NCBI GenBank assembly: GCA_947247005.1
Contig: OX365955.1
Location: 15,977,322-16,041,321 of the forward strand
Direction: 5' to 3'
From: Spisula solida
Lineage: Eukaryota > Mollusca > Bivalvia > Venerida > Mactridae
Length of the DNA stretch: 64,000 nt
The position numbers and the translations under genes are program-made. Below are positions 7,633 to 61,955 of this stretch, in pieces (within the stretch, counting starts at the first letter, position 1; each line of letters begins with the position of its first letter). The notes beneath the pieces were generated by a model. The model saw only the letters and a program-made list of their open reading frames with translations. It had not been told where the DNA came from and did no database searches.

Positions 7633-7887
7633 TTTGTATCCAAATTACGAGTAATACAATACAAACAAATAATGAGCAAGCCCCGTCGTTGTGTCTTGTG
7701 AAAGCCAACAATATCAGCTAGACATTTCTAAAGTACTCTAAGTCACAACAGTAGTTCACTTGTATCCAATTAATATACTCACGGTCAATGGAAACGCACC
7801 ACTTCGTTGATCTTGTATATAATTATATAGTATTAGAAAGTTTTAAAACAGTATTCTTGATGATTAAAATCCAATCAACATTCTATG

Positions 7888-13030: not shown

Positions 13031-13033
13031 TCA

Positions 13034-14425
13034 TCGGCCGGTCTGCACACGATGTCTAGACATCGGTTATATATCGGATCATACACAGACATCGTCCAGT
13101 CTGCACACGATGCCTAGACATCGGTTATATATCGGATACACGGACATCGTCCGGTCTGCACACGATGCCTAGACATCGGTTATATATCGGATCATACACA
13201 GACATCGTCCAGTCTGCACACGATGCCTAGACATCGGTTATATATCGGATACACGGACATTGTCCGGTCTGCACACGATGCCTAGACATCGGGTATATAT
13301 CGGATACACGGACATCGTCCGGTCTGCACACGATGCCTAGACATCGGGTATATATCGGATACATGGACATCGTCCGGCCTGCACACGATGCCTAGACATC
13401 CGGTACATATCGGATACCCGGACATCGTTCAGTCTGCACACGATGCCAAGACATCGGGTATATATCGGATACACGGACATCGTATAGTCTGCACACGATG
13501 CCTAGACATCGGGTATATATCGGATCATACACAGACATCGTCCAGTCTGCACACGATGCCTAGACATCGGTTATATATCGGATACACGGACATTGTCCGG
13601 TCTGCACACGATGCCTAGACATCGGGTATATATCGGATACACGGACATCGTCCGGTCTGCACACGATGCCTAGACATCGGGTATATATCGGATACATGGA
13701 CATCGTCCGGCCTGCACACGATGCCTAGACATCCGGTACATATCGGATACCCGGACATCGTTCAGTCTGCACACGATGCCAAGACATCGGGTATATATCG
13801 GATACACGGACATCGTATAGTCTGCACACGATGCCTAGACATCGGGTATATATCGGATACACGGACATCGTCCAGTCTGCACACGATGCCTAGACATCGG
13901 GTATATATCGGATACCCGGACATCGACCGGTCTGCACACGATGCATAGACATCGGGTATATATCGGATACACGGACATCGGCCGGTCTGCACACGATGCC
14001 TAGACATCGGGTATATATCGGATGCACGGATATCGGCCGGTCTGCACACGATGCCTAGACATCGGGTATATATCGGATACACGGACATCGGCCGGTCTGC
14101 ACATGATGCCTAGACATCGGATATATATCGGATGCACGGACATCGACCGGTCTGCACACGATGCCTAGACATCGGGTATATATCGGATACACGGACATCG
14201 GCCGGTCTGCACACGATGCCTAGACATCGGGTATATATCGGATACACGGACATCGTCCAGTCTGCACACGATGCCTAGACATCGGGTATATATCGGATAC
14301 ACGGACATCGTCCAGTCTGCACACGATGCATAGACATCGGGTATATATCGGATACACGGACATCGTCCAGTCTGCACACGATGCATAGACATCGGGTATA
14401 TATCGGATACACGGACATCGTCCGG
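13034..14425. repeat. 55-bp tandem satellite, about 25 units, with 333-bp higher-order repeat
   Basis: The unit is 55 bp (some variants 58 bp by a catac insertion) and carries cacgatgcctagacatcggg, tatatatcgg and acggacatcgtccgg. A block of six units around 13360-13560 recurs 333 bp later (around 13694-13890) with the same private variants (ccggtacatatcgg, gatgccaagacatc, tcgtatagtctg), so the array has expanded in multi-unit steps. Open frames across it on both strands are artefacts of the repeat. Confidence 0.95.
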
Positions 14426-14830
14426 TGTACGGTTGAATTGTGACCCAGACAAACAAGACACTAAGATTATCATTTTTATATGATTTTAGTAGCTACTATA
14501 ATTACTAAGGACGGTTATTCTTCAATGTTTGAGAAGTAGGAGCTGCGAAAATGTTCAAGTTTAATTAAGTCAAACTATTAAAAGTTTTCCACTAAGATGC
14601 TTTATACATTAATAACGACCGCCCATGTGTTCGTCATATTTCCTTGTAATAAATGCATTGTGCATAACTATGCATGGGTATACAATAGTTTGCTACACGT
14701 CTCGTATGACTTCGTCTAAGGTATTGTTATTGAAGAAATACGTATAAATATCTTTTAAAAAGTTAAAGGATGTAAAGCGTAATGTCGTATACTCGTACGA
14801 GGGATGTTCAAAAATAACGTATACTATCGC

Positions 14831-16335: not shown

Positions 16336-19300
16336 ATGGATGGTGATTCGGTTCCTACAGCCACCAGACGACTGGGATACGAGATGTGCCGGGACTCGAT
16401 CGGTGATGTGTGGGCGGACATTAGGGAAGATGAATTCCAAATTACGGTATTAAGGTAATTTTAACGTTAACTTCCATATCTTCTGTTCACTTGTAAAAAA
16501 TGCCGAGCATAGTCTTTATTTTACAGTCAGCTTTCTGCTGAAATATGGCAGCCTTTAATATAAGTACCTCCACCGTAGTTTGAACCCGGGTTGCCAGATT
16601 AGACGACAAGCGCGCTAACCATTGAGCTATGGAAGCACATATGTATACATAGCCATGATTTTACTTATGTTATACGATTGGCTACTATTTACATTACACC
16701 ATTGTTTGTACTATTATTTCTGTGAACCGCTCATTCTGTTAACATGTATTCATTCAGATCGTCAGCTGCATAAATCGATACGTCACATCTCATACTGATG
16801 TTATCAATTGCCAAATGCATTCTGTTGCAATTTCCATGTTGACACTGTATATATACTTACATAGACTTTATTTATAGAGAAAGCTTATTTAGCATATAAT
16901 ACAACGCTAATCTACCATAAGGTCCCCCATAAAACAATAAAACTGAACAAGATATAAAACGAAATACAGTAGAGTAGTCATATGACTGTCAGTACACTAC
17001 AATGGTAAACGCATCAGTACACTACATCATAATACCAGTACACTACACCAGACTACCCGTACACTACACCACTATGTCAGTACATTACACTGGTAAATGC
17101 TTCTATAGGTACATTACACTGGTAAATGCTTCTATCGGTACATTACACTGGTAAATGCTTCTATCGGTACATTACACTTGTAAATGCTTCTATCAGTACA
17201 TTACACTGGTAAATGCTTCTATCAGTACATTACACTGGTAAATACTTCTATCAGTACATTACACTGGTAAATGCTTCTATCAGTACATTACACTGGTAAA
17301 TGCTTCTATCAGTACATTACACTCAGTGGTAAATGCTTCTATCAGTACATTACACTGGTAAATGCTTCTATCAGTACATTACACTCAGTGGTAAATGCTT
17401 CTATCAGTACATTACACTGGTAAATGCTTCTATCAGTACATTACACTGGTAAATGCTTATATCGGTACATTACACTGGTAAGCGTATTAACACACTACAC
17501 GTAACGCCAACAAACAATTACACTAAATTAGCATACCGGTTCATTCCACCAGCATAACAATACACTACAGTATAGTTTATCAGCATATTCTGCATTATAT
17601 CAGAATACCAGTACACTACACTAGTCAGCGTTTCAGTACACTACACCATACTACCAGTACACTACACCAGAATACCAGTACACTACACCAGACGACCAGT
17701 ACACAACACCAGCATACCATTACACTAGTGACTTAACCAGACTACCAGTACACTACACCAGAATACCAGTACACTACACCAGACTACCAGTACACTACAC
17801 CAGAATACCAGTACACTACACCAGACGACCAGTACACAACACCAGACTACCAGTACACTACACAAGACTACCAGTACACTACACCAGACTGCCAGTACAC
17901 TACAACAGACTACCAGTACACTACAACAGACTACCAGTACACTACACCAGACTACCAGTGCACTACACCAGACTACCAGTACACTACACAAGACTACCAG
18001 TACACTACAACAGACTACGAGTACACTACACCAGACTACCAGTACACTACAACAGACTACCAGTACACTACACCAGACTACCAGTACACTACACAAGACT
18101 ACCAGTACACTACACCAGACTACCAGTACACTACAACAGACTACGAGTACACTACACCAGACTACCAGTACACTACAACAGACTACCAGTACACTACACC
18201 AGACTACCCGTACACTACACCAGACTACCCGTACACTACACCAGACTACCAGTACACTACACCAGACTACCAGTACACTACACCAGACTACCAGTACACT
18301 ACACCATACTACCAGTACACTACACCAGGCTACCAGTACACTACACCAGACTACCCGTACACTACACCAGACTACCCGTACACTACACCATACTACCAGT
18401 ACACTACACCAGACTACCAGTACACTACACACTTTTAGATCTTTGTATTTTCAGTTGGTTATACATATATAATTAAACGGTTTTGCACTTCTAATGAGTA
18501 AGTTAGCAAATGTAACGAAAATCCAGGTCCTGAGGGCGAAGTTCATTTATAAAACATTATTATACATACATGAATTATACAACTAAAACCGCTTAAATTG
18601 TATTACTACAGTCATGGGTCCAACGTTTAACTGAATCAAGTCCAATGTTCAAACTGTACAAACTCGCACACATTTATAGAAAGTTCAGTAAACTGAATAC
18701 TGCATATATTCTGGCCTATACCATGTCTAGTGCTGCCTTCCCTGTCCGATATTTTTCTATCTTTTACATCTGATACGATCTCGAACCAAGACCCCTACCA
18801 GAGAACCAACACCACCCCGATCTCCATAGAAATACAGAGACTATGATGGAGATGGATAGGTCATGCGACCCAATTTAACTCATGGGTTGCTAATAGGTGG
18901 ACTTCAGTCGGAGATGGGTAGAAACATAGGGGGGAGCGGTCGACCTAAGGAGACATAGAGAAGATTAACAGCCCGTGAGATGACAAAGAAGGGATGGACG
19001 TGGTGTCAGATGGAATGTTGGACCGTAGACAGGAACAAATAGCATTCTTTCGGTGTGACTCTAGGTGCAACCCCCAGCGCGAAGAGTAGTAGTTTTAGTG
19101 AGATAAAATACCAGTTACTTAGCAGGAAATCGTAATAAACGTATTACATGTAATAGATTCGTAAAGATGTAAGTGAACATTGACCTCAAGCAGTTCAAAT
19201 GAGGGATTTACTATACAAACTCTACTAATAAAAGTACATTAACATGCACAAAACAGATATTTACCACATAACTATGTATATAGAAGACTTTGAGTTCACA

Positions 19301-25300: not shown

Positions 25301-28300
25301 TACAGTGAGTTATGATATAGTCCAGTTAGGATATTGTGACAGTGACGTTGCAGTTTATGGGTACGCAAAAAATCACAACCATTGTCTAAACAGGTAGAGC
25401 GAAGTTTAGCTTGCTAGTTTAGCATTGAAATTATAGTTGTTTGTACAGTATAAGCCTTTATAATTGGTTTTACACCGTTATAGTGGACTCGACCGCTGCG
25501 TCAGTGGATTTGTATCCTGACTGGACTATACCTGAGGACATGAATTCTAGCCCAAAGGGATTCATGTGATACACAGTTGAACATACTGTAGATGTTTGTT
25601 TTGATGTTAATATATTGATCAGGCATTGTTACAGACACACTCTAGTTCAAGTAGTTTCCACATATTTACCTCCCTTGTTAAACATAGTTCCCACATATTT
25701 ACCCCCCTTGTTAAACATAGCTCCCTCATATTTACCTCCCTTGTTAAACATAGCTCCCACATATTTACCTCCCTTGTTAAACACAGTTCCCACATATTGA
25801 CTTCCCTTGTTAAACATAGTTCCCACATATTTACCTCCCTTGTTAAACATAGTTCCCACATATTTACCTCCCTTGTTAAACATAGCTCCCACATATTTAC
25901 CTCCCTTGTTAAACATAGCTCCCACATATTTACCTCCCTTGTTAAACATAGCTCCCACATATTTACCTCCCTTGTTAAACATAGCTTCCACATATTTACC
26001 TCCCTTGTTAAACATAGCTCCCACATATTTACCCCCCTTGTTAAACATAGCTCCCACATATTTACCTCCCTTGTTAAACATAGCTCCCACATATTTACCT
26101 CCCCTGTAAAACATAGCTCCCACATATTGACTTCCCTTGTTAAACATAGTTCCCACATATTTACCTCCCTTGTTAAACATAGTTCCCACATATTTACCTC
26201 CCTTGTTAAACATAGCTCCCACATATTTACCTCCCTTGTTAAACATAGCTCCCACATATTTACCTCCCTTGTTAAACATAGCTCCCACATATTTACCTCC
26301 CTTGTTAAACATAGCTTCCACATTTTTACCTCCCTTGTTAAACATAGTTCCCACATATTGACCTCCCTTGTTAAACATAGCTCCCACATATTGACCTCCC
26401 TTGTTAAACATAGTTCCCACATATTGACCTCCCTTGTTAAACATAGTTCCCACATATTGACCTCCCTTGTTAAACATAGCTCCACATATTTACCTCCCTT
26501 GTTAAACATAGTTCCCAAATATTGACCTCCCTTGTTAAACATAGCTCCCACATATTTACCTCCCTTGTTAAACATAGCTCCCACATATTTACCTCCCTTG
26601 TTAAACATAGCTCCCACATATTTACCTCCCTTGTTAAACATAGCTTCCACATATTTACCTCCCTTGTTAAACATAGTTCCCACATATTGACCTCCCTTGT
26701 TAAACATAGCTCCCACATATTGACCTCCCTTGTTAAACATAGTTCCAACATATTGACCTCCCTTGTTAAACATAGTTCCCACATATTGACCTCCCTTGTT
26801 AAACATAGCTCCCACATATTTACCTCCCTTGTTAAACATAGTTCCCAAATATTGACCTCCCTTTTTGTGTGGCGTAAACGCCACACAATGATATTACCAC
26901 TTTTTAGCTTACGACCAATTTAACGCATTAGGCCTCGGCAAATAAATAGTTCTATGATTTGAACAATATTACAAGCATGCAACACAGGTTACACGTATCA
27001 TTGGACCTGATTTGTTTACATTACCAACATTTACTTATATTAAGACCATCAATTATATCAGACTTTTATTTTTAGAGGATATTTATAGCAAATCATTCCG
27101 CAACGGACTATATTTTTACTACCAATGAATGTTCTCACTGGTGGCGGGAATCTAAAATAGTTCCCACGGTTTTCAATCGTATACTGTAACGTATGTAAAT
27201 CACTCCGCCGCTGCACATTGCAGACGATTACCTAATTATGTTGTATACAAACATTGATGCTATATATAGCTGGTGGGGGAACTGAAATAGTTCTACGTAC
27301 ATATCGATCGGCGGATTAACAATGTTACCGCGGTAAGCGTTATACGCACTAGTCAATTTCTACCCTGCTTTATATAAGACCTCATAATTTTCGTATCTAT
27401 TATCCGATTTTGAATATTTAAAGCTTGTAATGTAAGAATCCGTTCCGCGTAAAAGTAAGTTTAAAATATCCCGTTTTATACCAAATAAAAATTCAATCAA
27501 CGGTCGAAAATCATCAATTATTAAATTCAATATTCGATCGATTTTGTTCATTAAAGCTTGTTTTAAAAGCTAAAACTTTAAGGTTTTATAAAATGTAAAA
27601 CTTGTTTTTAAAGCATTAATCGGCCGATCGATATGTGTGAGCGACGCCATGTTTTCCCCTTTTACATACGTTAATATAGAGTGTCATATATACATTTAAT
27701 TAACATGCGTGGTCATACGGAGAATAAACAGTCACTTATCTTGACACTGGTCGAATTCTCCAAGTCGTTAAAAATGGTATTTGTAAATATCACTTCATTG
27801 ATGCTCAGCATAGTTACTTAAGTAAGTTCCAGGTAACTGCTGGTTCTCTTGGTGTCTTTAGCAGCACAAATGTTTGAGTAAGGGTGGGCTTATCAGAACT
27901 GTGACATAAAATTATGATACAACCTGGATTCGATATTGGATTTAGTGGCATCAGTACGCCACACATCAGTACTTTCAGTGCTTTGATTTAAATGGTCAGC
28001 CATCTTTGAAATCAACTTTTTACAATAAAATCATTTAATTTCAATGGGACAAAATTTCGTGGGGACGTAATTGCAAGGATTTCTGATTTCATGAAAAACG
28101 GCAATGTCAAAATTCAAACAAATTATCAGAATTCATTCAAAATTCAAACAGATATAATAATTGTTTTATATGAATATATAAATTTTACAAAAAAATGTAT
28201 TATTTTTTTCTCTCTTAATTACCTTTGGTTTATATATGCAAGTAAACTTCCCTAAAACTCAGTCTTATATACCTGACTAAGCTTGAAAGCAAGTGTGGTA

Positions 28301-40735: not shown

Positions 40736-43700
40736 AACAATCACTTCTCTATCTTTCAATGCTTTGATAACAGCATCTCTTTCTTTCTTTGTTGGAGTTT
40801 TCTTTTTCTGTTTGGCCAACTGAATTTTTCTGTAACTTTCCATTACCTGAAATGTGTAAAAAATACAATGTTTAAATTGTTTAAACTCCATAATAAGACA
40901 GTTACACTACACCATATTACATCACCGTATTGTGTCAACGTATGCTGTACCTACGAGAATTTTGGTAAGCACACTGATGTACATGTACGTAGAATAGGTA
41001 AGGGATAAGTTTAAAAATACCCTAAAGTACTCCAGCATAAACTCAGACATATCTAACATAACTATATACAGATGCATTTCGCTGCATTCACAGGATTTCC
41101 ATTACACAAACTTAGGTGGTTTAATGGAGTAATTTCTTTTTGTAGACCGGGGTAGTTTTGTTTTAAGTTCAAATGGTCGACAACATTTCAGTCATATGGA
41201 GACTACAAACTCATGTTATCCTGACACCGGACCAACCAGCAGTTATCTGGAACTAATTATACTGCTGAGCCTGAATAAAGGGAGATATAACAGTACCATC
41301 AATGGCTCGAGTATGTCACAGCCTGGAATCAAACCCACAACTTTACCTTCCCGAAGCAAACACTCTTACAACTCTCTGCCATTGCATTAGGTATTATAGA
41401 GTAAAGGATTAATCACATGGATACAGATTTATACATGCTGTAATGATTAAAAGATTTTTATTTATTAAAAAAATACTATAATTATGCACTTGACGTAGAA
41501 TAATGTTTGATACCTCTGAATCTGATACTGCTAGTTTTTTCTGCAGTTCTTGCTTTGCCATTTCATCTTTTGCAAGCTTATATAGTTTCTTGGTAGCAAT
41601 GATGTTATGTTGACATACAGCTTTAAGTTCTGCCTGTTTTACTCTCAATTCACGAAGAATTTCATCATTTTCATCATCTTCTTCTGACTCATCAAAATCA
41701 AGAATTCCTGAAAAATCAAACATCACTCATCAAAATCTAGAATTCCTGAAAAATCAAACATCACTCATCAAAATCTAGAATTCCTGAAAAATCAAACATC
41801 ACTCATCAAAATCTAGAATTCCTGAAAAATCAAACATCACTCATCAAAATCTAGAATTCCTGAAAAATCAAACATCACTCATCAAAATCTAGAATTTCAG
41901 AATTCACCGTTATTTGTGTGCAATTGGTAAAGTTGGTCTCAGCACGTGTAGCAACATGCACAACTAGGCAAGTACTAATGTGTCTTGCTCATTAAATCCA
42001 ACAAATAGTTTTAGAGAAATAGTGTGGAAAAATCTGTTAATTCACAGATGACTGATTGATTCCAATAAAGCCCTGATTTACTTCATATGTGAGAGTATTT
42101 TAAGTTTAGATAGCAACTAAGTATTAGTGAAATCAACCTCAGGGGTGTTCAGGTGTGTGGTAGGACCCATACAACCTTAAAACTGCAGAACCTACCCTGG
42201 TCCTCTAGCTCCTTTTTTATCCTTTTCTCCAAATGTACTGGATTACCCAGATTTAACTGTTTGGCCAGTTCCTTCGGTGAAATGGCAGCTGATTCATTGA
42301 AAGAGTCTGGAAAATAGAAAACAAACATGCATGTATTAAGCACCAAGAATTTAGAACTAGAATGGTTATTGACACAAAAACATACAAGGGTCGTTACTAC
42401 AGAAAAATTATCTTACCTAAATTCTATCCATGCTCTATCAATTGAGGTAGCAGGGATCGCTATTGAGTTAAATGTGATTCATACTTATTACGAAAATAAT
42501 TTCAAGGTGGTATCATAATAGAATTGTTCTTGTTCAAGGTATGCACACCAATGCAGAACAGGCAGATGCAAGGACTTTCTAGCATTAATACCAGTAGACA
42601 GACTGATATAATGCAGAATATGTATATATCCTCCAGCTCAGTGAACGTTGATCAGAACATAATGGGGAACAAGTTCGCATAACCATGCTAGGTAATAATG
42701 TGTCCTGTAATCAAACCAGTGGTACCACAGAGATAGTGCACATACATTTTGTCTATAGTTGGGTGGGCCGCAAAACATGACTCGAATACATCGCTTGTAT
42801 GCTACAGACCAAAAATACTTCTCAAATACTGCCCCTATATGCTACAGACAGGAAACATGACTCGAATACACCCCTTATATACTAAGTGTTTTGGTGTATG
42901 ATAGTTTATATAATATTTACCATTTTCAGGATAATCCTCGTCCATTTCTTCATCCATTGGTGTCATTATATTCTCTTCTATCAGCGCTGACACTAGTCTC
43001 TGTGTGAGTACACCAAATGGTGACTCATCAAGTATACTGTAATACATATAACATAATTATACAGAAAAACATCACATAAACAACAAATCAACAAGACCAC
43101 CTCATTGTTATAGATTTGCTTAATATTACAAGAGGGCCCAAAGGGCCCTAGGTCGCTCACCTGTTATAGCAGTACATGCAAGACCTGTGATTTGACCTAG
43201 TGACCTAGTTCTTGGCCCCATATGACGCAATATCTCACTTAACCTAAATTTTGTTGTGATGAGCATTGTGACCAAGTTTCATAAAGATTAGGTCAAAATT
43301 GTGACCTCTAGTGACAACACAAGGTTTTTCTATGATTTGACCTTGTGACCTAGTTTTTGACCCCGTATGACCCAATATCGAACTTGACCTAGATTTGGTT
43401 GTGATGATCATTGTGACCAAGTTTCATAAAGATTAGGTCAAAATTGTGACCTCTAGTGACTACACAAGGTTTTTCTATGATTTGACCTTGTGACCTAGTT
43501 TTTGACCCCGGATGACCCAATATCGAACTTGACCTAGATTTTGTTGTGATGATCATTGTGACCAAGTTTTATAAAGATTAGGTCAAAATTGTGACCTCTA
43601 GTGACTACACAAGGTTATTCTATGATTTGACCTTGTGACCTAGTTTTTGACCCCGAATGACCCAATATCGAACTTGACCTAGATTTTGTTGAGATGATCA

Positions 43701-46700
43701 TTGTGACCAAGTTTCATAAAGATTAAGTCAAAATTGTGACCTCTAGTGTCTACACAAGCAAATTGTTGACGGACGGACGACGGACGAAGAGTGATCACAA
43801 AAGCTCACTCTGTCACTTTGTGACAGGTGAGCTAAAAACCAATTTGATATAAAAACCAATTTGTAAGGGTCTGGAGTCCTGAAATTATCGCAAAGAATGT
43901 GGATATTGCATATAATAATAACACATGCATGTCAGTACTAAGACCCACTGAGAAAAATAGCTGGATCTGAGAAGGGATAATACTCCACATAGCCAAAACT
44001 ATTGAGACAAGTGTGTCTTTATAATGTATAAGACATTTTCAGTTTAATTTATAAACCACAAACCTTTGAGCAAACCAGCTTACTCACATAATTCTACATT
44101 CTGTGTGGGATTGAAACCTGCAGTACCAGTGGTGAGGGGCAAGTAATTTAAAGCTCACACATTAGAGTAGATCTGGTAAAAGCATTTAAGAATAGATATA
44201 CATTACATATACATGATATATACACCCCAAAACATGTATACCGAATATAAATACATTCTGATAAATAAATATACCCCATATACCCCACAATATGTATAGT
44301 GGATATATTTCTGTATACGACTCAGGTACACTAATATGCAGATTAATACAGTAGATACAAAAGCAGAATGGAATCTTGAGCATGTTTACTGGGTCTACTT
44401 TGATGTTATCCCATTTAAAGTCGGCTACACCTATACCACTTGATACCATTATCAATAACATTTCAATGACGGACAAAGGATACAAATTCATTAAATGTAT
44501 CTAACCTTGATTCTGCAGACTTTAACAATGCAGAGGCACCATTTGTATCAGCAACTCCATTCCTCTTCTCCCCTATTTTAGCACCTACAATAGAACAGTG
44601 ACATTTCAAATCAAACAAAAAATCATTCCAAATATCTCAGACAATAAGTTTTTGGGGTTTTAGAAATATAAAGATTATTGACACAAAAAGTTAAAATGTA
44701 TGTCCCCCACTACAGGTCAAAACTCTGGCAAAATTCAACAGACCTAAAATTTCCTGAAAATATGCACAACTGGGCTTGGTACCAAATATTCATGTGAAGT
44801 TTCATTGAACTCTGAACTGTTTTCAGAGGTTAAGGAGAACAAGCGCAGACAAACTTTGTGCCATCCATCCACCACCAGCACAAAATCTGTATGTCTCCCC
44901 CACATAAAGTAGGCGACATAAATATACTTTAATTAACAGAAGTGTTTCAAATCCCTGGATTATGTAGAAGTACTGGTCAGTTACTAAAGAAGCAGTCACT
45001 TGATGGATTCAACATAAATAATGTAAGTAATTTTATGGTAATTTATTGTGATCCCTTATCTACGTTATTTATCAACAAGATTCCATACTTTGCTTTTGTT
45101 CCTCCAGTAGGTCCTCTTCAGCCCATTTCTCCGTGTAGTGCATCCCCATGGACGGAACTTTCAGGTACTCGGCATCGTCTTCGTGAGATCGTAGTAATTC
45201 TTCAAGAAATTTCATGTCATCATTGGTGATATCAGCACAGTAAGGTTCCACTGAGGTCCAGAATTTGTTCACTGCATTGTTTTTAGGGAGTTTAGGGAGA
45301 TCAATGGGGTTAGGATCAATCAGGATGTCCTGTTCAGGTAGCTTCATCTATCAAAGTAAAAAAACCTTTCTTATTGACCTGTTTAGGTAACTTTACCTAT
45401 CAAAGTAAAAAAACTTGAGTAATTGAAAGATCTCAACTATGAAATTATATCCCACAGATTATTAATTTTCTTTTAAGTTTGCCTTTGAAATTCACAAATA
45501 TAGGACATTACAAAATTGCCTTTTTCACTAACTTGTTGGGTTGGAAACACTTAAAATTTTCCAGTGCTCTTGAACCAGGGACCTCTCGATTGGTAGTTGA
45601 GAACGCTATTCACTTGACCACCTAGCCACCTATCACCGTGGCCTGTGGGATATATGGTTAAAGAACAAGAAATAACTGACCTGTGTTAGTTTAGTCTTCA
45701 GTTTGGAGGCTGGAGGAAAGCTTGAAGCTTTACCAGATGTGTCTTTAAACTTCTTACTAGGCTTATCATCAGCAGCTTTTCCTCTTTTACTGGGAGTTTC
45801 TGGTTGCTGAAAATATTACAACATACAATAATCAACATTGAATGAATATCATACATAGAAGCAATAACCATCAAGCAGGCTTCGATTAATCTACTCGTCC
45901 GCTTGTCCTGCAAAATCTTTCCTTCTAAGTTCTTTATTTTTAATATAGCAGGACGAGTAAAAGTTTGGTGTTATCTCACAGGACGAGTGCTTTAAAATAT
46001 TTGTCGAGGCCTGCATGAAGAATAACATTCAACTGCCAACACAATGATGGGATGGGGGTATGTACTGTTTGCTGAATAGTTGTGTGTAAAGTAGACTTTA
46101 AATTAACTTTTTGTAAGTAGTTAGTACCAAGGCCAAGATTTGTGCAGGTAATATAAAAGCCCTAAAAACTCTTCATATGCAGAATTTTATGGATTTGTAT
46201 GGGTATGATCCCTGTCAGACTTGACCTCTGTTAAATAACAACAAGGCACTTACAACTTTTCCACCTTTGACTTTTCCAGCTGGTTTGATTTCACCCGACT
46301 TTTCTTGCCAATTTGTAAGTATTTGCATTTCATTCTCCAATACTTTAAGTCTTTTACCAGCATTGGCAAGCAGTGTCTCTAGATCGCCTTGTACCACATC
46401 AAGTTCCTCTAGACCGATAGTCTCCCCTTCACCACGGGATAGGACTGAAATATGTATACAACAATATGATATTCATAGACAGGAGTTGCACTTTAGGATG
46501 AATCTTCAGGGTTATTTTGATAATAGTACTTGATATTACAAAAATACTGCTAAATGCCTCAATAATTTACAGAAAAGATTAAATTACCCTTCAACTATAT
46601 GGTAATTACTAGGTTACACCATTATAAATGCAAAAAATAAATTGTACAGATAATTTAAAAAAACTCGCAAATACTGACAATGACAGCATTTGTAAAACGC

Positions 46701-50842: not shown

Positions 50843-53800
50843 ATGAGGATGTGGACTAGAAAATTATGGTCTCATGGACGAATTTGTCACCGTTATGGAA
50901 GTAGATCCATTTCCAGGACTACTGTAAACTATTCGACTGAATTACCAGACTACAACACATCTATAAATGTTCATGAACATAAGCTTACTAGACCAGGCTC
51001 AAGAAATCCTGATCAGAGTAAAAAATGGAAAGGGCTTCAAGATTTACATACAAGGACAAAGGTACATGCCACATATACATACAACCATAAAAAACAGATA
51101 TTTAACTAACGAAATATAAACAGATGTCAGTTTTCAGACAGTTGTTCTAACTTCATGTGGTTTTTCTTCTTCCTATTACTGTCAGTTGGGTTCTTCATAG
51201 AATGTTCGTAACTCAATGAAACTGAGGGTGGTGGTGGTGGAAACTTGTCAAAATCAGCAAGCAGACATTTACTAATGAGGGTGAATTATAAGGCCTACTG
51301 TACTGCGAGTGATGCATGGAGTGTGATTGGCTCAGTAAAAAACACATACAATTGCCGCTTGAAATAACAGGTCTTCAGGAGTCTGAGCATTCTTTGCTAA
51401 CTTGTGAAGAAATAGAAACAAACATATTGAAAAATCAATGACTCATTGCACAAGTTTCATCATAATCTTACATTAATGTTCCATGCCTGTGATTGCATGT
51501 ATTATAGGATATAATTTATAGGAATGTTTTTCATCATATGAAGCATGCGAAGTTGTGCACCGTTTGTTTTATCTGAGGCATAATTTACAAGTTTTGTCGT
51601 TTTTCAAAAACAGTCTGATAATTTTATAAATAGCAAAAGAAATTTGAATACATGTATTCTGGGCTGCTGACATTTTGTGAATGTTGCAGAGCTCTTGGAG
51701 GCCATACTTACTTACTTAATCTCCTGGATCCATGCCGGATCATAAGGTCGCCACAAGATTTCTCCATCCAGCTCTGTTCTTATCTTTGGCTTCTGTCTCT
51801 CCCCTGGTTGGAGCCCTTATAAGTGTCTAATTACTATCTCACACATACAGTTTCAGATTTAAAAATGATTTTCATATTTAGTAACAATCTTACGTTTTTA
51901 TTATGTTTTATGTAGGAATCTTTAATACCTTCAACACTAAAAGAGATGGACGAAAATGAAGAATTTAAAATCACTGCTGCTGAATTAAAAAGACTAGGAC
52001 AGAAGAAACTTACTAGGGAAGAGAGGAAGAGAAGACAAAGAGCTCTAGATGATCTTGGTGTGCCTGACTTTAAAGAGTTCTGGAAACAGAAAAGTCTAGA
52101 AGCAGGCATCAAAGGTTTGTTATTCATTTTGCGGGATTAAAATTTTACTGAAAAACAGATTTTGGTGTGTTTATGCAAGCTCAGTAAGCTTAGTTAATGT
52201 AGCACATTGATTGCTCATGTTATTAATTTGCTGGTGGTGGGCTCTGTAACAGTTTGCCTTTGTTGTATTCATGTGACATGACAACCATGTAACAATAATG
52301 GTTTGCGGGTGCTCATGTTACACTAGTTAGTTCATTATAATACCATGGCCGTCAAGGTTCTCTATAGAGTTGGAGTCAAGGTCTGACTCACTTTACTGTC
52401 TTTTATGAACATGTCTTTTATTATAAGTTACAATATGGATGATAAATATCATAAATAGACAGTTCCATCTTAAAACAGTTTATGTGAGTACGGTACAACC
52501 CCTCCAGAAATGCCCTGCCTTGAGCAACAACCTCTCTTTAGCACCATTATCATTCTGTTTCAGAGAGAAACTCAAAGTTTAACTTTGACGTTCCCCTAAC
52601 ATTTACAAGTGCAAATGAAAATTTATACTGATTCCAATTACTTTTTTCTACTTTTCAGTGAATGATGATGTATTGAGAAAGAAAACTATAGAACTATTTC
52701 AAGTGAACGTAGGATTGTATTGTAATCAAGCATGCAATCATTGTCACGTTGAATCTTCACCAAGAAAGAAGGAAATGATGAACCGTCAGACAGCAGATCA
52801 GTGTATTAACATCCTTGCTAACAGCCCCAATGTCCATACACTGGATCTCACTGGTAGGAAAGTTGTTCTTATTAACCCTTTACTCCATATACTCTACACT
52901 ATTCTGATAAAAAATTAGCTACAGTGTGTACCCATCTCATGCGCAGCTTCTTTGGACAAATTTTAAGGATGATCCTCCTTGATAAGGCATTTTCTGTAAT
53001 TGGATTGTCTCCCTTCTACACTCATTTTTGGAAGACATAGGGGGTTGAGTATGACCTACACATTACCTTGATCATATTGACCTGTATTAGCCCTAGTCCC
53101 ATCCCATAGCCCCCCCATATCAACAGTACTTTATTGGGACTGTGTGTACATTACAAATCTGCAAAGGTTTAATATAAAAATGAATCCAAGAGATAGGTAG
53201 TGTGCAATTTGATTGCAGAAATTGATTTATTCAACGTCATATCAATATTTTAATTTTAAACAGGGCTTTTTTATGCCCCCGTATCGATAGATCGGGAGGC
53301 ATATAGTGATTCACCTGTCCGTCCGTCCGTTCATCCGTCCGTCCGTTCGTCCGTCCGTCCTGGTTAACCCAAATTGACCGTTTCTTCTAGCATCATTATG
53401 GCTTGTTACAAAGCTTCCAAACTTGCATGGATGTTGTATATGAACACTCTCCACACACCTGTATCACCTGACCCCATTTTGACCTTCACCTTGACCTAAT
53501 TTTGGACTTAGACTTATTTATGGACAAGGCTTCCACAGGGGGCATAAGCGTTTATTGAACGCAGTCTTGTTTCATTATATAACAGTGGCTGTTATGAGGT
53601 CCCTTCCCCTGGAAAAAATTCTTTAAAATCATGCAGTTTTCCCCCGAAAATGAAAATTACCTTGACAATATCTTTCCCCATGTTTCCAAAATACTTATAT
53701 TGTTCCCCCTAATTAAAGGTAAGGCCCAATCCCCAAGGTTAAAAAATCCCTGATTTACCATGAAGGTCAAAGTCAAATGAAAATAGAATTACCAAAACCT

Positions 53801-56800
53801 TAAGCTTATACATTTGGCAAGCTTGCATTTGGCAAATCTGCCTGTAGAACCTGGTATGCACAAACATTGGCCTTTTTTATGAAATTTACAAAAGTATCAT
53901 CCAAAGGAATTCTCATGTAGATAGGCTAATTTTGTCTGACATTGTTTCAATTAAAGTTTTTTTCGCATAATTATACAAAATTTTAAATATTTTAGTTGTT
54001 TAAATGACACAGTTTCTGTTACATAGGTGGTGCTCCAGAATTGTGTTCCGAGTTTCGACATTTGGCTTCAAGTGGTCGAAGTTTGAATAAGTCTGTGATA
54101 GTTAGAACAAATCTAACAGCTTTGTTGGAACCAGGTATGTTGTAATATATAAATCCTGTTATTACAATATAAACCTCCCGTGTTTTGAATAGTCGGCCAT
54201 TTTGCAGGGCTCGGCAATTCTATACAGTATTGATAGTTATTATAAAGGAAATATTCATATAAAAAAGCATGTACGTGATAATCAAGAATACGGCAAGGGT
54301 AATTCGTATATGTGACAACTGCTTTTGTGGTCCTTTATCAAGTTCATGATTAGACTTTCTTGATATTATTTAACATACCATACAAGATATAGAGTTGCTA
54401 TTCAAAATGGCCGACAATGACCAGAACGAGGGAGGCAAATACTGCAGAAAAGTTAATTCTTTATAGAGCAGCAGATTGAGATTTGTATTATATCTGTATA
54501 GGACCCCTGTAGTATGTATGTATCTTTGTGTGAGGAATCAGTGACAGGGCATATCTATAAATCTATCTTTTACAGTGCTACGCTATTATTTCACATTTGT
54601 TGTAAGATTGCCCAGGTTAAAAACCTTCAGACCTGGTAAAGTTTATATTGACCATGGAGTCCCTAACAAATTTGTTTAAATTAATACTCTGTCTTGTTTA
54701 TTTCACATTAGATCAGGAAGACACTGCACAGTTTTTTGCTGACCAAGGTTTACAAGTTGTTGCCTCATTGCCATGTTACAGTGCCAAAAATGTAAACACA
54801 CAGCGTGGTAGTGGAGTGTTTGATAGAAGTATACATGCATTGTTGATGTTGAATGACCTTGGTTATGGTAAACAGGGAACTGGATTACAGCTGGATCTTG
54901 TATATAATCCATTAGGTATGTTATAGTACAGAGATTTTCACCTGTCCCTCCACCTTCTGTTAGCAAAATTTATCAGCTGATATATTGTCTATATTTATAA
55001 CCGCGGTTGTATGTTTCCATAAGGGCAGTGTTATTTAAGCTGCTCAACGTGTGATGAAAAAACAAATCTAAAGGACCAATATTGTACAATTTGCTCGCAG
55101 AAATTGATATATTCAACACAAGGACCTACTGTAAAATATTCATGCATAAAGGTTAGGATCAGGTCAATATCTCTGTATTATATACTCAAGGTGTTAAAGG
55201 TGTTTAATCACAATAGGAAGCTGTGGTTTGAAGATAAGAGGTGAGAGGTCCTGTGTTTGATTCCTGTCTAGGCCGCAGCTTACCGAGTACCTGCGATGCT
55301 TAACTCCTACCAGGTGAAAGAATGAGTACCTGATAGGGTATGAAGGGCTGCCAGCAGTGCCATGTTAGCTAAATTATGGGGGAAGTAATGTTAAGTCTGC
55401 TGAGTGGATGCATGTCTGAAAGAAGACTCTAATCTAAACCCGACTTTTATATTTACAATGTTTAAGTTTGAATACATTTTGTATTGTGTGATTCCAACAT
55501 GAGGAGAAGTGCTGCAAGCAAGCTACAATTTCTGACATTCAACAAAATGATCAGTTTCCTCTGTATTGGGGGGGAAATTGTCAAGCTTAATCTTCTAAAC
55601 TTTGTCTTGGTAAAAAATTTTCACAACTCAAATATTTATAATGTTTATACGCCTGTTGAAAACAAGAAGTATTATGGAAACACCCTTGGCAAGCGTGCGG
55701 ATGTGCGTCCAGTATTTTGTCTACTCTTCCTCAAATAATTTCGTCTGATCGTCCTCAAATATTCAATATTTATGGACATAATATCTAGGCCAAGTTCAGT
55801 TATAGGCCAAATCAGACCAGGCCTTCTTGGGCTATGGCCCTTAAATTACCCAATATATGTGATTGAAATTGGCTTAGGGATTATTTTATTTTCATTCAGT
55901 ATGCCCCAAGATGGGTGTATTGTGTGACATTTTGACTCTCGTTCATTGATACCTGAACCACACAAATTTTTATGTGAACAAATGTTTGTTTGTTTGTGAT
56001 CGACTGAGACAGTCCTAAGTGCGTGGTAATTCACTTTGTTCCCTGTTGATTTGGCCAATGACCTTAAGAATCGAAGGAAGAGACAGTTGTGTGATACAAG
56101 GAATCCGGGTGCAGTACCCATGCTTGTTCCAAACATACTCCATGGTTCTTTAACATGCCCAGTGAGTAGCACCGATATACTTGAGACTACCTCTGGGTTA
56201 CCAACCAGTTAATTTCTAGTTTGGAATCTCTGAAAAGCGTTACAGAAATGAACATGTTTCCAATCTGAGTTTTGAACCAGGGATTTCTCAATTCATAGTC
56301 TTGAGCGTTACCCACTTGACCATCATGCAATTAGAACAAATTATTGCTGGGAGTGGGACATTTGACTTTATTTCCACACATTTGTTTTACTCCAGGTGGG
56401 TTTTTACCCCCACCCCAGGCAGCCTTGGAAGAGAAATACAGAGAAGAATTGATGACAGTGTTTGGTATAGAGTTCAACCAGTTATATACTATAACAAATA
56501 TGCCAATCAAAAGATTCGCTGATTTCCTTTATAGAAGGTGACTTAATTTGTCCATTGTTCTCTTTTACAAAATTATTACATTTTGCTCATACAATTACAA
56601 TGTTGTAGTTTGATTAGTTTCACCATTTAACCAGATTATTCAATGGAAAAAAAACTGGTTCAGATTGATAATTTTGTAGGCGGTCAACAATTGGTTTCCG
56701 TGTAGATCGCAGGTAAAAAACAATGGAAGGAGATTCAAAGAAAATGTCGGATACAAAAAAACCAAGGAAAATACGATAAAATAATATGGCTGATTCCAAC

Positions 56801-59800
56801 TTGCCAATCTGAGACTTAGAAAATGTCTCACGCTCTGCAAAGGACACATCCAATTTTTGGTTGATGAAAGTGCTGACTAGACTACCACCTTAAACCTGAT
56901 AATAGATAATAATTATGCTGTTTGAAATATAGAGGATATTACATGAGTGTCTTTCCATATTGAATTTATTAAACGAGTTGAATAAAATAATAAAATGCGA
57001 GGCTCTGCCGAGCATTTTATCGATTTTTTCAACGAGTTTAATAAATTCAATGTGGAAAGTCACAAATGTAATGTTCTTTTTATCACATGTTAGCCTTTTC
57101 CGGCCGAAACATAAAATAGCTACTTATTTTTCACTATTATTAACGCGCAACTTTGACGACGTCGCCTATACTTTGAATGACGTCGCGTGATAGCTTTATT
57201 ACACTAGTGTATTATCAAAAATAAATAATGGCTTTATTACGCTACCGCGACGTCAAACATGTGATAAATTTATATATTACACCATTTGTTGTTTGTACTT
57301 TTTATACAGAAATGAGTTAGCTGACTATATGGGTTTGTTGGCTAGGAACTATAACCTGTCTACCATAGACAACATGATGTGTCGTAACTTACTCAGTGTT
57401 AATTGGGATGGTAGATTGTTTGACTGTGATTTCAACCAACAACTTGATATAGACATGACAACAACTGGTACGTGTTTAAACTGTTATAAACAGTATACTG
57501 TATAAGTACAAGGGGTGATCAACAAATACGTGGAAAAATGCCCTGAAATCTTTGTTACATGACCAATATTGAAGAAATTCGGTCAGATAATAGATTGGCG
57601 TATTACAAATACATAACTATAAAAAAACCATTAAACTCATGGTAATATTTGGTCGAAAAATATAAAAACCACAACGTCACTATGGCTTCACCGGCCCAAC
57701 GTCATTGCGACGTCGTTACATATAACAGTGTACATACTTATTCATGGCACAATTCATACTGTATTTGCATTGAATGATTCTCAAAAAATATCTGTACAAA
57801 CAGACACACTTCATAGACCTGTCAACTGAAATTCAATTTTTTTTTGCAACTTGTATGTAATTTATAAGAATTAGCTGCTGGAGAACATTAATGTTGATGA
57901 CGTAATTTGACGTTATTGACGTTGTATAGCCAATTCGCATGTCGGCATTGATTACACATGGCTATGCATGAGAGAATATGCAAAACAGACACATGTTTTA
58001 TGTGCTATTACATATTTGTTGCATTTTGCAATATTTTCATTGGTATTTTGATGGTAAAACAATTTTTGGAAATAGTAAGTAAGTAAGTAAGTAAGTAACA
58101 ACTTTATTTATAGTAGATAACACAGGCTTCGCGAAAGTCGCCGGACCGCCGGTCATGACCGGTGAAAATCAGTTTGGTCCGACAAAAATTATAGTTCGCC
58201 GGTCCGAATGTCTGTCAAACTTTTCGTATCGTCTGGTACGAAATTTATCGGTACGAAGCTTTATTTCCGGTAATTTAACGATGCGCATGCGCAGGTTGGT
58301 TGTTTAAAGGACGGAAAGAGAACTAATTTGCAAAAAGACGCTGATTTGACGAATACTTATACTGTACTCTGTCTTCAGTATGTTATTTTCCGAAACACAT
58401 TTTGTGAATACAAATCTCAACAAAAAAAGATTTTTGAGAAACAAGTTACGGAAACTAGCAAACAATAATGAATAAGTTTTTTTAAAAATCGACTTTTTGC
58501 AAATGTGTTCACTTTCCGTTATTTAAACGAACTTTATGATAAGAGTTAATTTCTCTTAGAAACTCTTCACTGTCGTAACCACAATACAATGTCGTTCCTC
58601 AAATACTACGGGAGTGCACAACCTGGGATAAATTGTTAAAACATTTGGTTTTTTTACTGTTTCCTATTAATATTGTTCGGTCCGGCCAAAATTGATTCGG
58701 TCCGGCCAAATTTATTTTATGCCGGACCGGATGTCCGGCCTTTTTTTCTCACTTTCGCGAAGCCTGGATAACATATTTGGTGTTATACCAATTTTCAATA
58801 TGGTCTACATAATAAACATATATACATTAAATACATGATAATATACAAACAAATTTATAAAGATAATGAAACAGTATTAGTTAAACTTAACAATATAGGA
58901 TACTCATGTATTGTTTAAAACGTTAACCTATAATTAAATAGCTAGTATACATACAAAATCAATAATCAACTGTGAACGAAAGTGCTATTCAATATGTATA
59001 TATATTATATAAAAACGATAATATTAAGTCAGACAGGGAAGGCAGCACTCAGCTGAACCAGCCGGGCACAGAAAACATAAAAGCGGCACAGACACTGTCC
59101 AACGTAAAAATCTAGCCACTACAAAAACACAGCATCCCGTCCCGAAAGTCTGCCACCTCAGTCAGTCAAACTAAAACAGAACGAGAGCTAGGTGCCAAGA
59201 AAATAACAACCGGACATTACACAGCACAAGGACAATCTACAACATATATATAATGTACATGCAATTTTAAAAGATACGAAGCAGCCTTGTGCTGGACTAT
59301 GAAATTGCAAAATGGCACATACAAAATGAACAAAGTTTAACAAGAAGGCACAATGGCGAAATATTTTTGTATTTTAACATTGAGATATGTATGCATAGAT
59401 TATTATGTAGTATTGCGTTTCCAATTCAAGAATTGTCTAATAAAAGAACTTGTGTTCTCTGCCTGTTATGTAATGGAATATCATTCCAAATAGATGCACC
59501 TGAATAGGAAAAAGATTTCTTAAAGAATTCCATGTTTGGATGTGGTACAACCAACTCTTTATTCGTTGTTGATCTTAGTCCAGGATTAGCTTTTAATACA
59601 AATTTATCACTTAGATATTTTGGGACTTTATTTTGCATTGAGTTATACATTAAAACAGCTTTTTTATATGGTATTCTTTCATGAATTGTCATCCAATTTA
59701 GTTTAATGAAGAGTTCTTCTGATGAATAATGAATGTAATGTTATATCATTGCATATCCATAACCCACCCTGTAGAAAATTATAATATTACTAATGCACAA

Positions 59801-60473
59801 ATGATACGCCATCGTTTGCTACAAAAAATGCTTGAAAATATGAAAAATTGGGCTGCATGACGTCGAGTGACCTTGCCATAGGAAACCGCGTTGGTTCCGA
59901 ATTTGGTCAATATTGATGATCAGCAGTAAATCAATTTTGAAAAAATTTATCTTCATGTATAGAAAGTTTCAACGACTTACAATGACAAATAAAGAAACTA
60001 CAGCACTTTTCCGCGTATTTGTTGATCACCCCTGGTAGATATATTCACGAGTCGAAAAGTTAGTGAAGTATGAATTAAGAGAAGTATGAATTATCATGTC
60101 TCCTACATATAGATTTTGTGCTGGATGTCTGTATGGTTGGAACTCATAAAGTTTGTCCGAGCTAGTTCAAATCTAACCATTGGTTCGATTTCCATGAAAC
60201 CTCACATGAATACTTGGTACCAAGTCTAGTTGTGCATGTTGTTAGGAATTTTAGGTTGCATGATTTTTGCGGAGTGATGGCCCTTTGTGGTAGACATACA
60301 TTGTTGTGTCAAAAACCCTTCAAGTTATATATTTACTTGTACTTACAGATAAAGCCAGTGTGTTTGATATAGAGTCCTGCTCTGATCTGGAACAAGCTGA
60401 GATACCGGTACAGAATCATTGTTATGGTTGTACCGCGGGAATGGGGTCCAGCTGACAGGGAACCACCATCTAA
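50843..60473 (+). CDS. arsS: Radical SAM selenoprotein of the ArsS (arsenosugar biosynthesis) family
   Basis: Exons: 50843-51061, 51916-52114, 52659-52853, 54027-54134, 54712-54915, 56396-56537, 57310-57467, 60349-60473. All are GT-AG with matching phases, giving 449 residues counting one in-frame TGA (60453-60455) as selenocysteine 444. Residues 1-35 (MRMWTRKLWSHGRI...) are basic and lack acids, like a mitochondrial presequence. Residues 74-139 are a charged extension (LTREERKRRQRALDDLGVPDF). The radical SAM core has CNQACNHC (161-168; Cys161/165/168 for the 4Fe-4S cluster) and LTGGAPEL. Then come VVASLPCY, RGSGVFDRSI, LVYNPLGGFLPPPQ, MCRNLLSVNWDGRLFDCDFN and the terminal HCYGCTAGMGSSU (432-444). 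ArsS acts on dimethylarsenic with SAM to give a deoxyadenosyl-arsenical on the path to arsenosugars; in this animal the substrate is inferred. The family is known to have Cys or Sec at the last position. An acceptor at 50829 (ttgtttcag) implies a noncoding first exon. Confidence 0.93.
53272..53573. mobile_element. Short TIR element (TATGCCCC...GGGGCATA), copy 2
   Basis: Near-identical to 29833-30119, with an expanded cgtc/cgtt run. Lies in the ArsS intron after the radical SAM cluster exon. Confidence 0.75.
55235..55445 (+). mobile_element. tRNA-derived SINE (diverged)
   Basis: A tRNA-like head with gtttgattcct as B box is followed by a body ending gaagactctaatctaaaccc. Lies in an ArsS intron. 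The A box is weak. Confidence 0.4.
56958..57060. repeat. ~100-bp imperfect palindrome
   Basis: The arm tttccatattgaatttatta and aacgagttgaa is mirrored by ttcaacgag and tttaataaattcaatgtgga. Around the centre, aaaatgcgaggctctgccga and gcatttta form a further hairpin. It would extrude or fold as a long hairpin. Lies in an ArsS intron. Confidence 0.7.
58123..58766. mobile_element. 644-bp hAT-like non-autonomous DNA element with 7-bp TSD
   Basis: Perfect 15-bp TIRs CAGGCTTCGCGAAAG / CTTTCGCGAAGCCTG are flanked on both sides by GATAACA (58116-58122 and 58767-58773). The interior is rich in ccggacc/ggtccggc palindromic words. TIRs beginning CAG with a 7-8 bp duplication suggest hAT, but no transposase is present. 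Confidence 0.85.
59426..59740 (-). pseudogene. C-terminal reverse transcriptase fragment (CR1/L2-like)
   Basis: Reads SSEELFIKLNWMTIHERIPY, KAVLMYNSMQNKVPKYLSD, RSTTNKELVVPHPN, KKSFSYSGASIWNDIPL. This is the typical end of CR1/Jockey-type ORF2 (LxWxxIxxR, YKxLxxxxPxYL, SFxxxGAxxWNxLP). The frame is lost after IPLHNRQ. 5' truncated, so not functional. Confidence 0.75.
60094..60300. mobile_element. ~200-bp dispersed TIR repeat, copy B
   Basis: Inverted relative of 44697-44920, sharing agattttgtgctgg, acatgaatacttggtaccaa and gttgtgca. It ends 48 bp before the Sec-encoding exon. Confidence 0.6.
60453..60455 (+). other. arsS: Selenocysteine codon (TGA) of ArsS
   Basis: In-frame TGA within HCYGCTAGMGSS-U-QGTTI, followed by five sense codons and TAA (60471-60473). 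The homologous position is Cys or Sec in the family. A SECIS-like hairpin lies 626 nt downstream. Taken as a stop it would remove the last conserved residues of the family motif. Confidence 0.92.
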
Positions 60474-60719
60474 TTGAGATCCTGTGTATGTAGCCAGGTA
60501 CCGTGACCTGATCGCGGTCCTCGGTATCTGACATATAAATACAGTTTGATCTCTTAGATCTGTTGTTGGTTTTGAAAGAAATTCTCAGTTGTAACGGAAC
60601 AAAAAGAAATCAATAGTCAGAAAAAGGAGCTTTAAAGCAATGTTTGTTCAGTTAACCTGGTATTGTTTTGGAGTCTTCCTGAGAGTATGTTTAATCAGTT
60701 TTCTGAAGATTTTTTGTTT

Positions 60720-61060
60720 ATTGCTGACAAAAGTTTTTCTGATGAGAATTGAATTGACTTTTATAGATTTTAATGATGATGGAAATTGAGTTTATTGCTG
60801 ATAAGAATTGAATTTGTTGCTGATTAATATTGAAATGATTGAATTCATTGCTGATGAAAATTGAGTTTGTTGCTGTTTTGAATTTATGATATTGCTGACA
60901 AGAATTGATTTTATTGCTGATGTGATTTGAATTCATTGCTGATGAAAATTAAATAATAAGCTGATGAGAATTAAATTCATTGCTGTTATAATTTAATAAT
61001 AAGCTGATAAGAATTAAATTTATTGTTGATGTGATTTGAAATAATTGTTTACATTGCTGA
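60720..61060. repeat. Degenerate ~20-bp AT-rich repeat between ArsS stop and SECIS
   Basis: Loose repeats of attgctgatgagaattgaat with variants (gctgataagaattaaatt) fill the 3'UTR between the stop codon and the SECIS element. Confidence 0.7.
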
Positions 61061-61080
61061 TAAGTATGATTATATGATTT

Positions 61081-61140
61081 GTTGTAGAGAATGAAGTCTT
61101 GAACTTAAATTTTATGGTGCTAGACTGATGCGAGTACAAC
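61081..61140 (+). promoter_or_regulatory. SECIS element in the ArsS 3'UTR
   Basis: The 60-base segment folds as a canonical eukaryotic SECIS. The lower stem pairs GTTGTA (61081-61086) perfectly with TACAAC (61135-61140). The internal loop is GAGA against GCGAG. The non-Watson-Crick core places ATGA (61091-61094) opposite TGAT (61126-61129), allowing tandem G.A/A.G pairs. The upper stem starts with A61095-T61126, then GTCT (61096-61099) pairs with AGAC (61122-61125); further pairs are interrupted by mismatches. The apical loop carries AAA (61107-61109), exactly 12 bases after the core, as the SECIS consensus demands. It is recognised by SBP2 to recode the upstream TGA. Confidence 0.9.
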
Positions 61141-61198
61141 ATTCAATGTTTTATTATTTGTTATTCATTATATTTATTCATGTTTTGCTAGTTGTAGT

Positions 61199-61955
61199 AC
61201 CGTATAGCGTGTTATTTCTGCTGGTAGAAAATTTTGCGATTTGGGCCTAAAATGGGTAGGTTTTATTTCTGCGGTTTTTATTTCTGCGACCTACCAGAAA
61301 ATCGGGAATTAATTTCTGCGGGTTTCAGAAACCGGAAGAAATTTCTGCGAATGGTAAATAACTACCGTATCTACTCTGGCATGATCAACAACATGATAAC
61401 ACTGCTTGTATGATTTATATTTAATTGTTAATTTTATACAGAACTCAGCTTTTTTCATTTTAGGAACATCAGAACAGAACAGAACATTTTCAGCAGTACA
61501 TGCACTACCGGTAAACTAAATCAATGCATTTAACGGCATATTATCCTCAACCCAGTCTATTATCCCCGCACCCCTAAATCCACATATGATGATGTCTGGC
61601 TGTGCTCGAATATCAGTACAAACTACAGTGCTGCAAATTGAACCAGTTGTCAAACTTACATCAACGTGTATTGAGGGTCAATACCGATATAACACATACC
61701 ATTCATTAATTGTTAAACAAACAAGCAAACAAAGACAGTCGATCACTATACGTGTGAAAAATACGACAGTAACAAAACACTAGAAAGATATAGATTAAAG
61801 GTATATTCCCAGTATATTGAAGCAAAATATGGAAGTTAAATTTTGCGAACAAAATTTTTACGGATGTTTAATTTTGCGGAATTTAATTTTACGGGACAGC
61901 CTCAAACCGCAAAAAACGCAGAAATAAAAACTCGCAGAAATTACCCGCTATATGG
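61199..61955. mobile_element. ~757-bp TIR element downstream of the SECIS
   Basis: The left end, accgtatagcgtgttatttc, is the inverted counterpart of the right end gaaattacccgctatatggt. Many tttctgcg and ttttgcg words lie inside. No transposase frame. It begins 59 bp after the SECIS, so the ArsS transcript may end near or inside it. Confidence 0.7.

Follow-up and report, generated by a model that had tools for sequence, protein, structure and literature searches.

Does a nuclear gene of the clam Spisula solida encode a radical S-adenosylmethionine (SAM) enzyme of the ArsS family that carries selenocysteine (Sec) near its C terminus? We examined this question in a 64,000-nt stretch of contig OX365955.1 (hereafter the window), in which a split gene of this family contains an in-frame TGA and is followed by a hairpin that resembles a Sec insertion sequence (SECIS). 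Judged from its sequence, the gene is almost certainly genuine, of the ArsS selenoprotein type and passed down vertically in animals. We consider it highly probable that the product is a bivalve ArsS-family enzyme with Sec in a C-terminal GSS-U-Q-G, inserted by means of UGA and a SECIS in the 3' untranslated region (UTR), and that this enzyme would probably be mitochondrial and adenosylate arsenicals. The features computed here are the gene structure, the family assignment, the TGA codon, the family-like tail that follows it, an alternation between Cys and chain end among homologues, and genes for several components of the Sec machinery.

Eight plus-strand exons, separated by seven introns with AG/GT at the inner borders, join into one frame spanning window positions 50843-60473 (Table 1). 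This frame is interrupted solely by the TGA at 60453-60455 and stops at the TAA at 60471-60473. The product has 449 residues, and the TGA codon corresponds to residue 444. The last exon reads HCYGCTAGMGSS, TGA, QGTTI, TAA at 60349-60473, exactly as the initial annotation had described it, and the C-terminal family motif GSS[C/U]-x-G is present as GSS-TGA-QG. We asked how often such a tail occurs by chance. There are 2557 TGA triplets on the two strands of the window. In 13 cases the next two codons read [QEG]G, and a single triplet (1/2557), at 60453, has the whole tail including its stop. The TGA codon and its tail are strongly beyond chance.

We then compared the C termini of homologous proteins. 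A search with the window protein (best 120 of 7995 matches) and a search with a sponge protein (best 120 of 7998) together gave 137 different proteins, and the counts below hold among these matches listed. The motif HCxGCxxGxGSS or a near variant was found in 130 of the 137, and the other 7 lacked it. Of the motif-bearing homologues, 76 terminate exactly at GSS, before the TGA position, and 54 go on with Cys; none (0/130) has any other residue there. The residue after Cys is Q in 52 proteins and E or G in 1 each, and the next one is G in 54/54. Among the animals whose proteins end at GSS are bivalves, the annelid Owenia, the brachiopod Lingula, the nemertean Lineus, two hemichordates, amphioxus, two copepods and the sponge Sycon. 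Those with the Cys form include the priapulid Priapulus and, among echinoderms, starfish, sea urchins, crinoids and a sea cucumber. Judged from these protein ends, the alternation is what gene prediction yields for a family in which Cys and Sec interchange, and it bears out the earlier proposal that the TGA occupies a Cys/Sec position. Proteins from the algae Triparma and Chrysophaeum (P0070, P0123) also terminate at GSS, so these algae probably have Sec forms too.

The claim that a nuclear animal genome carries an ArsS-family radical SAM gene held up against curated profiles. The protein from the eight exons scored 422.1 bits against TIGR04167, the ArsS equivalog model (cut-off 300). A starfish homologue scored 409.4 bits, and all 33 homologues tested matched the model at E <= 0.001. 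DUF3641 (PF12345) was found in the window protein with 180.8 bits, and the Pfam radical SAM domain (PF04055) was matched in exon 3 with 29.0 bits, slightly below its cut-off of 29.5. The CxxxCxxC motif lies at C161, C165 and C168. Residues C380, C395, C433 and C436 match the pattern C-x9-15-G-x4-C with CxxC, which we take to be the SPASM/twitch auxiliary-cluster motif. Because the N terminus is rich in Arg (6 among the first 40 residues) and by eye resembles a mitochondrial presequence, we propose a mitochondrial location, which this feature suggests. A sequence search of the PDB gave weak radical SAM matches only (best E 0.0006).

Bacterial ArsS couples a deoxyadenosyl group to dimethylarsenite, and the likely function of the window protein is that of a mitochondrial selenoenzyme that adenosylates dimethylarsenite; the ArsS function is assigned from family membership. 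From these features we infer Sec insertion, SECIS function, mitochondrial location, substrate and the role of Sec, and we propose the following mechanism. The UGA at 60453 would be decoded by tRNA-Sec under the direction of the 3'-UTR hairpin at 61080-61141, and ribosomes failing at UGA would release a protein lacking both Sec and the five residues beyond it. In the full-length enzyme, most likely in mitochondria, SAM bound to the [4Fe-4S] cluster of CxxxCxxC would be cleaved to a 5'-deoxyadenosyl radical, which would be joined to a trivalent methylarsenical. C380, C395, C433 and C436 would carry the auxiliary cluster. The C-terminal Sec, which is Cys in other lineages, would be free at or near the active site and may act as an arsenic(III) ligand or as a redox or electron shuttle.

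An alternative with appreciable weight, though one we do not favor, is that the animal enzymes of this family no longer act on arsenic and instead modify something else, such as a peptide or tRNA, in the manner of other radical SAM/SPASM enzymes. The closest folds include SkfB (6efn), SuiB (5v1q) and anSME (4k36), which share 16-20% identity with the window protein. These three SPASM enzymes act on peptides. A profile search of the genome also found no arsM-like gene above its cut-off, although an intron-rich gene would escape such a search. Against a change of substrate stand the TIGR04167 scores of the clam and starfish proteins, both far above the equivalog cut-off.

A selenoprotein gene requires a host that decodes UGA as Sec, and we searched the 932-Mb assembly (36 contigs; the window is on contig 13) for the relevant machinery. 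One tRNA-Sec with anticodon TCA was found above the cut-off (78.8 bits), along with 35 weaker matches below it. SepSecS exons were found in two neighboring sets, one with its exons in order and the other partial (G000:C10:13309624-13310871 and 13353031-13364019), and a tandem duplicate of the gene is possible. The selD profile matched an SPS2-like gene, which we presume to be SPS2, through four exons that each scored below the whole-protein cut-off. An upstream exon of this gene reads KG-TGA-GCKVP and so has an in-frame TGA of its own, and some 0.7 kb after the stop its UTR has a hairpin that makes a convincing, probable SECIS (G000:C12:12972195, L090). Because tRNA-Sec, SepSecS and an SPS2-like gene are all encoded in the genome, we take it that this animal decodes UGA as Sec. 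A genome search for Rdx (SelT/SelW-like) proteins found nothing, for which introns are perhaps to blame. The Rfam model SECIS_1 (RF00031) gave no match at E <= 10 for the probable SPS2 SECIS, and the model therefore seems insensitive in the S. solida genome. One genome-wide SECIS_1 match at E <= 10 was obtained with 150 of 21677 candidates scored (G000:C14:17233161-17233225, L084; 25.9 bits, E 3.36); it lies on a different chromosome from the window, and no selenoprotein gene was recognized by eye in the 3-kb locus around it.

The candidate SECIS of the window gene lies in the putative 3' UTR, where position 61081 is 626 nt beyond the TGA, the distance given in the initial annotation. Eukaryotic SECIS elements have an ATGA/GA core with AA 10-13 nt further on, and the hairpin at 61080-61141 satisfies this pattern. 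Its core consists of ATGA at 61091-61094 and TGAT at 61126-61129, with 12 nt (61095-61106) between ATGA and the AAA at 61107-61109. The upper stem opens with 5 bp (AGTCT/AGACT). The core, the 12-nt spacing and the presence of an upper stem had been described correctly; the lower stem, reported as 6 bp, comprises 7 bp (61080-61086 paired with 61135-61141). SECIS_1 matches exactly 61081-61140 on the plus strand. Its E value over 4227 families is 6.1 when the whole window is searched, 0.86 with 9 kb and 0.079 with the 827-nt UTR; the last value divided by 4227 comes to about 2e-5 for SECIS_1 alone in the UTR. A second pattern match, at 59666-59746, sits in the last intron and was set aside as chance. 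In the putative 3' UTR, a TGATGA-rich 22-nt repeat (ATTGAATTCATTGCTGATGAGA-like) occupies roughly half of the stretch from the stop to the SECIS, and this repeat is a possible source of SECIS-like cores.

It is unlikely, in our judgment, that the gene encodes a selenoprotein whose functional SECIS is another UTR element, with 61080-61141 a chance hairpin. The canonical pattern does arise in 1.4-3% of dinucleotide-shuffled versions of the 827-nt UTR (273/20000 when stem I has 7 bp or more, 604/20000 when it has 6 bp or more), and a model that also missed the probable SPS2 SECIS is a poor guide in this genome. However, the hairpin is by far the best candidate in 60474-61400 (-14.0 kcal/mol, compared with -7.6 kcal/mol for the runner-up), and 61081-61140 is the only SECIS match at E <= 10 in the 64-kb window. 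The hairpin alone is moderate evidence for a SECIS.

Several results weigh against a Sec-containing, arsenic-adenosylating enzyme encoded at this locus. The initial annotation had called the hairpin a canonical SECIS and had suggested a check with a SECIS model; the pattern features and the position of the match stood, whereas the score of 23.0 bits did not reach the Rfam gathering score of 35. Of 1000 shuffles, 56 reached its energy score, the z-score of its minimum free energy is -1.68, and it ranks 8th in energy among 138 equal-sized window tiles (7 of the other 137 are better), so that energy taken alone does not set the hairpin clearly apart from chance. The genome-wide SECIS_1 search, with its 150 scored candidates, did not report it. 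Three ATTAAA signals (60948, 60970 and 61013) lie upstream of the hairpin. Among bacterial relatives (the best 80 of 591 loci, selected for closeness to the eukaryotic proteins), 78 of 80 have the motif and all 78 encode Cys there (TGC 49, TGT 29, TGA 0; the motif did not match the other 2), with Sec in none. The label "ends at GSS" was taken from protein ends, and the codon itself was read for the window and the bacteria only. Finally, an arsenic methyltransferase is the expected genomic partner of ArsS, and the corresponding profile (NF008823) gave three weak genome matches, the best with 47.9 bits (cut-off 263). This best match, the sole one inspected, appeared by eye to be a general methyltransferase; an intron-rich gene would escape the search.

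If the TGA were a true stop, the animal protein would end at GSS and QGTTI would be the relic of an ancestral Cys form. The moderate standing of the SECIS taken alone and the 76 of 137 database proteins that end at GSS are compatible with this explanation. We nevertheless find it very improbable. In the sponge, copepods, amphioxus, hemichordates, nemertean, brachiopod, annelid and bivalves listed above, the protein stops at one and the same place, and other animal lineages have Cys there. Because the lineages that stop at a position that is Cys elsewhere are so widely spread, a relic would have to retain five codons and a stop in this genome over a very long time. The position is Cys in every one of the 54 proteins that continue, and a SECIS-like hairpin follows downstream on the correct strand. 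We rejected this explanation because of the Cys-or-end alternation and the identity of the tail.

We examined the descent of the gene in a tree of 52 rows (IQ-TREE, posterior mean site frequency [PMSF]). The closest protein among the matches listed is from Mactra antiquata (80% identity over 98% of the query). The window protein groups with it (100/99), nested in bivalves among the clams. The 44 eukaryotic rows form a group (100/99), and the 29 animal rows form a more weakly supported one (83/92). The labels "ends at GSS" and "Cys" require 4 changes on the tree, compared with a mean of 17 when shuffled. This topology is consistent with vertical inheritance among animals, in which echinoderms and a priapulid have the Cys form. 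Viral contigs were searched and contained no relatives. All three stretches matched by the DUF3641 profile in the genome fall within the ArsS-type gene, which therefore has one copy within the reach of that search. Relatives do exist in algae and bacteria, but a foreign origin of the gene, as contamination or by recent transfer from a symbiont or alga that makes a Sec-type ArsS, is exceedingly improbable and was ruled out by the seven introns, the confinement of DUF3641 matches to this one gene of the assembly, an Ada3 gene part 9 kb upstream and the placement with Mactra inside bivalves.

We compared the window gene with known selenoprotein families. TIGR04167 is described as a prokaryotic selenoprotein with the motif GxxU in the available text of one report (PMC13188914) and is included among predicted bacterial selenoproteins in that of another (PMC9312934). 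The bacterial ArsS/rSAM_SeCys protein (for which AAR34688.1 is the example in reviews) and the window protein have in common the radical SAM CxxxCxxC, DUF3641 and the C-terminal GSS[C/U]xG. The window gene differs in being nuclear and intron-bearing, in encoding about 145 residues ahead of the family match, in having a candidate eukaryotic 3'-UTR SECIS and in its Q-G tail, where G-G is commonest among the best 80 of 591 bacterial loci. The TGA plus 3'-UTR SECIS mechanism proposed here is the same as in known metazoan selenoproteins.

Algae provide a second comparison. In the available text of an algal selenoproteome paper, FeSoxR/FeS oxidoreductase is listed among algal families and falls outside the list of 19 algal families also reported in animals (PMC7539508). 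Aureococcus selenoproteins are likewise said to include an Fe-S oxidoreductase in the accessible part of a further paper (PMC5917014). Because UniRef gives the name "Fe-S oxidoreductase" to the homologues from Ectocarpus, Triparma, Tribonema and Chrysophaeum, the algal selenoprotein probably belongs to the same family as ArsS; its hosts are algae, whereas the window gene is from an animal. The selenoprotein table of a 2020 review names Fe-S oxidoreductase, with columns that are indistinguishable in the text version (PMC7435645), and a survey of Archaeplastida, in its available text, does not mention FeS or radical enzymes under the terms searched (PMC6627142).

For animals, a survey that covered six invertebrates tabulates 21 selenoprotein families (its Table 1) with no radical SAM family among them, and the words "radical" and "Fe-S" are absent from the available text of that survey, though it covered Branchiostoma floridae (PMC3473315). 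The homologue from B. floridae (P0034) ends at GSS. An ArsS selenoprotein from an animal was not reported in any of the open-access papers listed by our literature searches, as covered by titles and the starts of abstracts, with subscription papers and supplements outside this scope. The initial annotation had supposed that such a gene would be little or not described. This fits the accessible literature on animals, although an algal FeS-oxidoreductase selenoprotein, probably of the same family, has been published. As far as the accessible literature shows, the ArsS selenoprotein is new for animals and is of a kind known from bacteria and probably algae.

Table 1. Coordinates of the ArsS-type gene and its putative 3' UTR in the window.
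Feature	Position	Strand	Remarks
Coding exon 1	50843..51061	+	ATG start; Arg-rich N terminus; GT donor after; PDYNT..HEHKL region common to homologues
Coding exon 2	51916..52114	+	AG/GT borders
Coding exon 3	52659..52853	+	contains radical SAM motif CNQACNHC (CxxxCxxC)
Coding exon 4	54027..54134	+	
Coding exon 5	54712..54915	+	
Coding exon 6	56396..56537	+	DUF3641 begins here
Coding exon 7	57310..57467	+	DUF3641 part with C-x9-G-x4-C
Coding exon 8 (last)	60349..60473	+	AG acceptor before; reads HCYGCTAGMGSS-U-QGTTI-stop
In-frame TGA, proposed Sec codon	60453..60455	+	residue 444/449
Tail Q-G-T-T-I and TAA stop	60456..60473	+	conserved relative to tails of Cys homologues; chance count made over window TGAs
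22-nt tandem repeat	60769..61047	+	putative 3' UTR, between stop and SECIS
SECIS-like hairpin	61080..61141	+	7-bp stem I, ATGA/TGAT core, 12-nt gap to AAA, stem II
ATTAAA, possible poly(A) signal	61794..61799	+	downstream of SECIS
AATAAA, possible poly(A) signal	61923..61928	+	downstream of SECIS

Part of an Ada3/TADA3 gene, which codes for a histone acetyltransferase subunit, lies about 9 kb upstream on the minus strand (41412-41726; PF10198, 58.4 bits), and a neighboring minus-strand open frame (45072-45344) has no Pfam match. Further away on the minus strand, one open frame (5452-7644) encodes a TRIM-like (RING/B-box) product of 731 residues and another (8267-9631) a reverse transcriptase. 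Long repetitive tracts at 17625-18476, 25611-26923 and 12909-14485 are open in several frames.

Animal selenoproteins are mostly thiol-redox proteins, and the family proposed here would place a radical SAM enzyme among them. If our interpretation is true, the animal selenoproteome gains a family that has no entry in the metazoan survey, as far as its available text goes (PMC3473315). In many other invertebrates, the public protein sequences for this gene seem to be truncated at the TGA position, which would amount to a systematic annotation error in which GSS-ending public animal proteins stop one residue short of a likely catalytic Sec. We tentatively entertain a broader hypothesis, whose odds we put below even: marine animals may have owned a Sec-dependent arsenic-adenosylating enzyme from a time before sponges and bilaterians diverged and may make arsenosugar precursors themselves, with the Sec selenolate binding the arsenic(III) substrate through a Se-As bond in the active site and the GSS-ending models (20 named animal gene models in the tree set) misreading UGA as a stop. 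According to the available text of a 2024 review, the exact biosynthesis of arsenosugars is still unknown (PMC11228943). The finding gives a testable way to ask if arsenosugars are made by bivalves and other invertebrates rather than only eaten.
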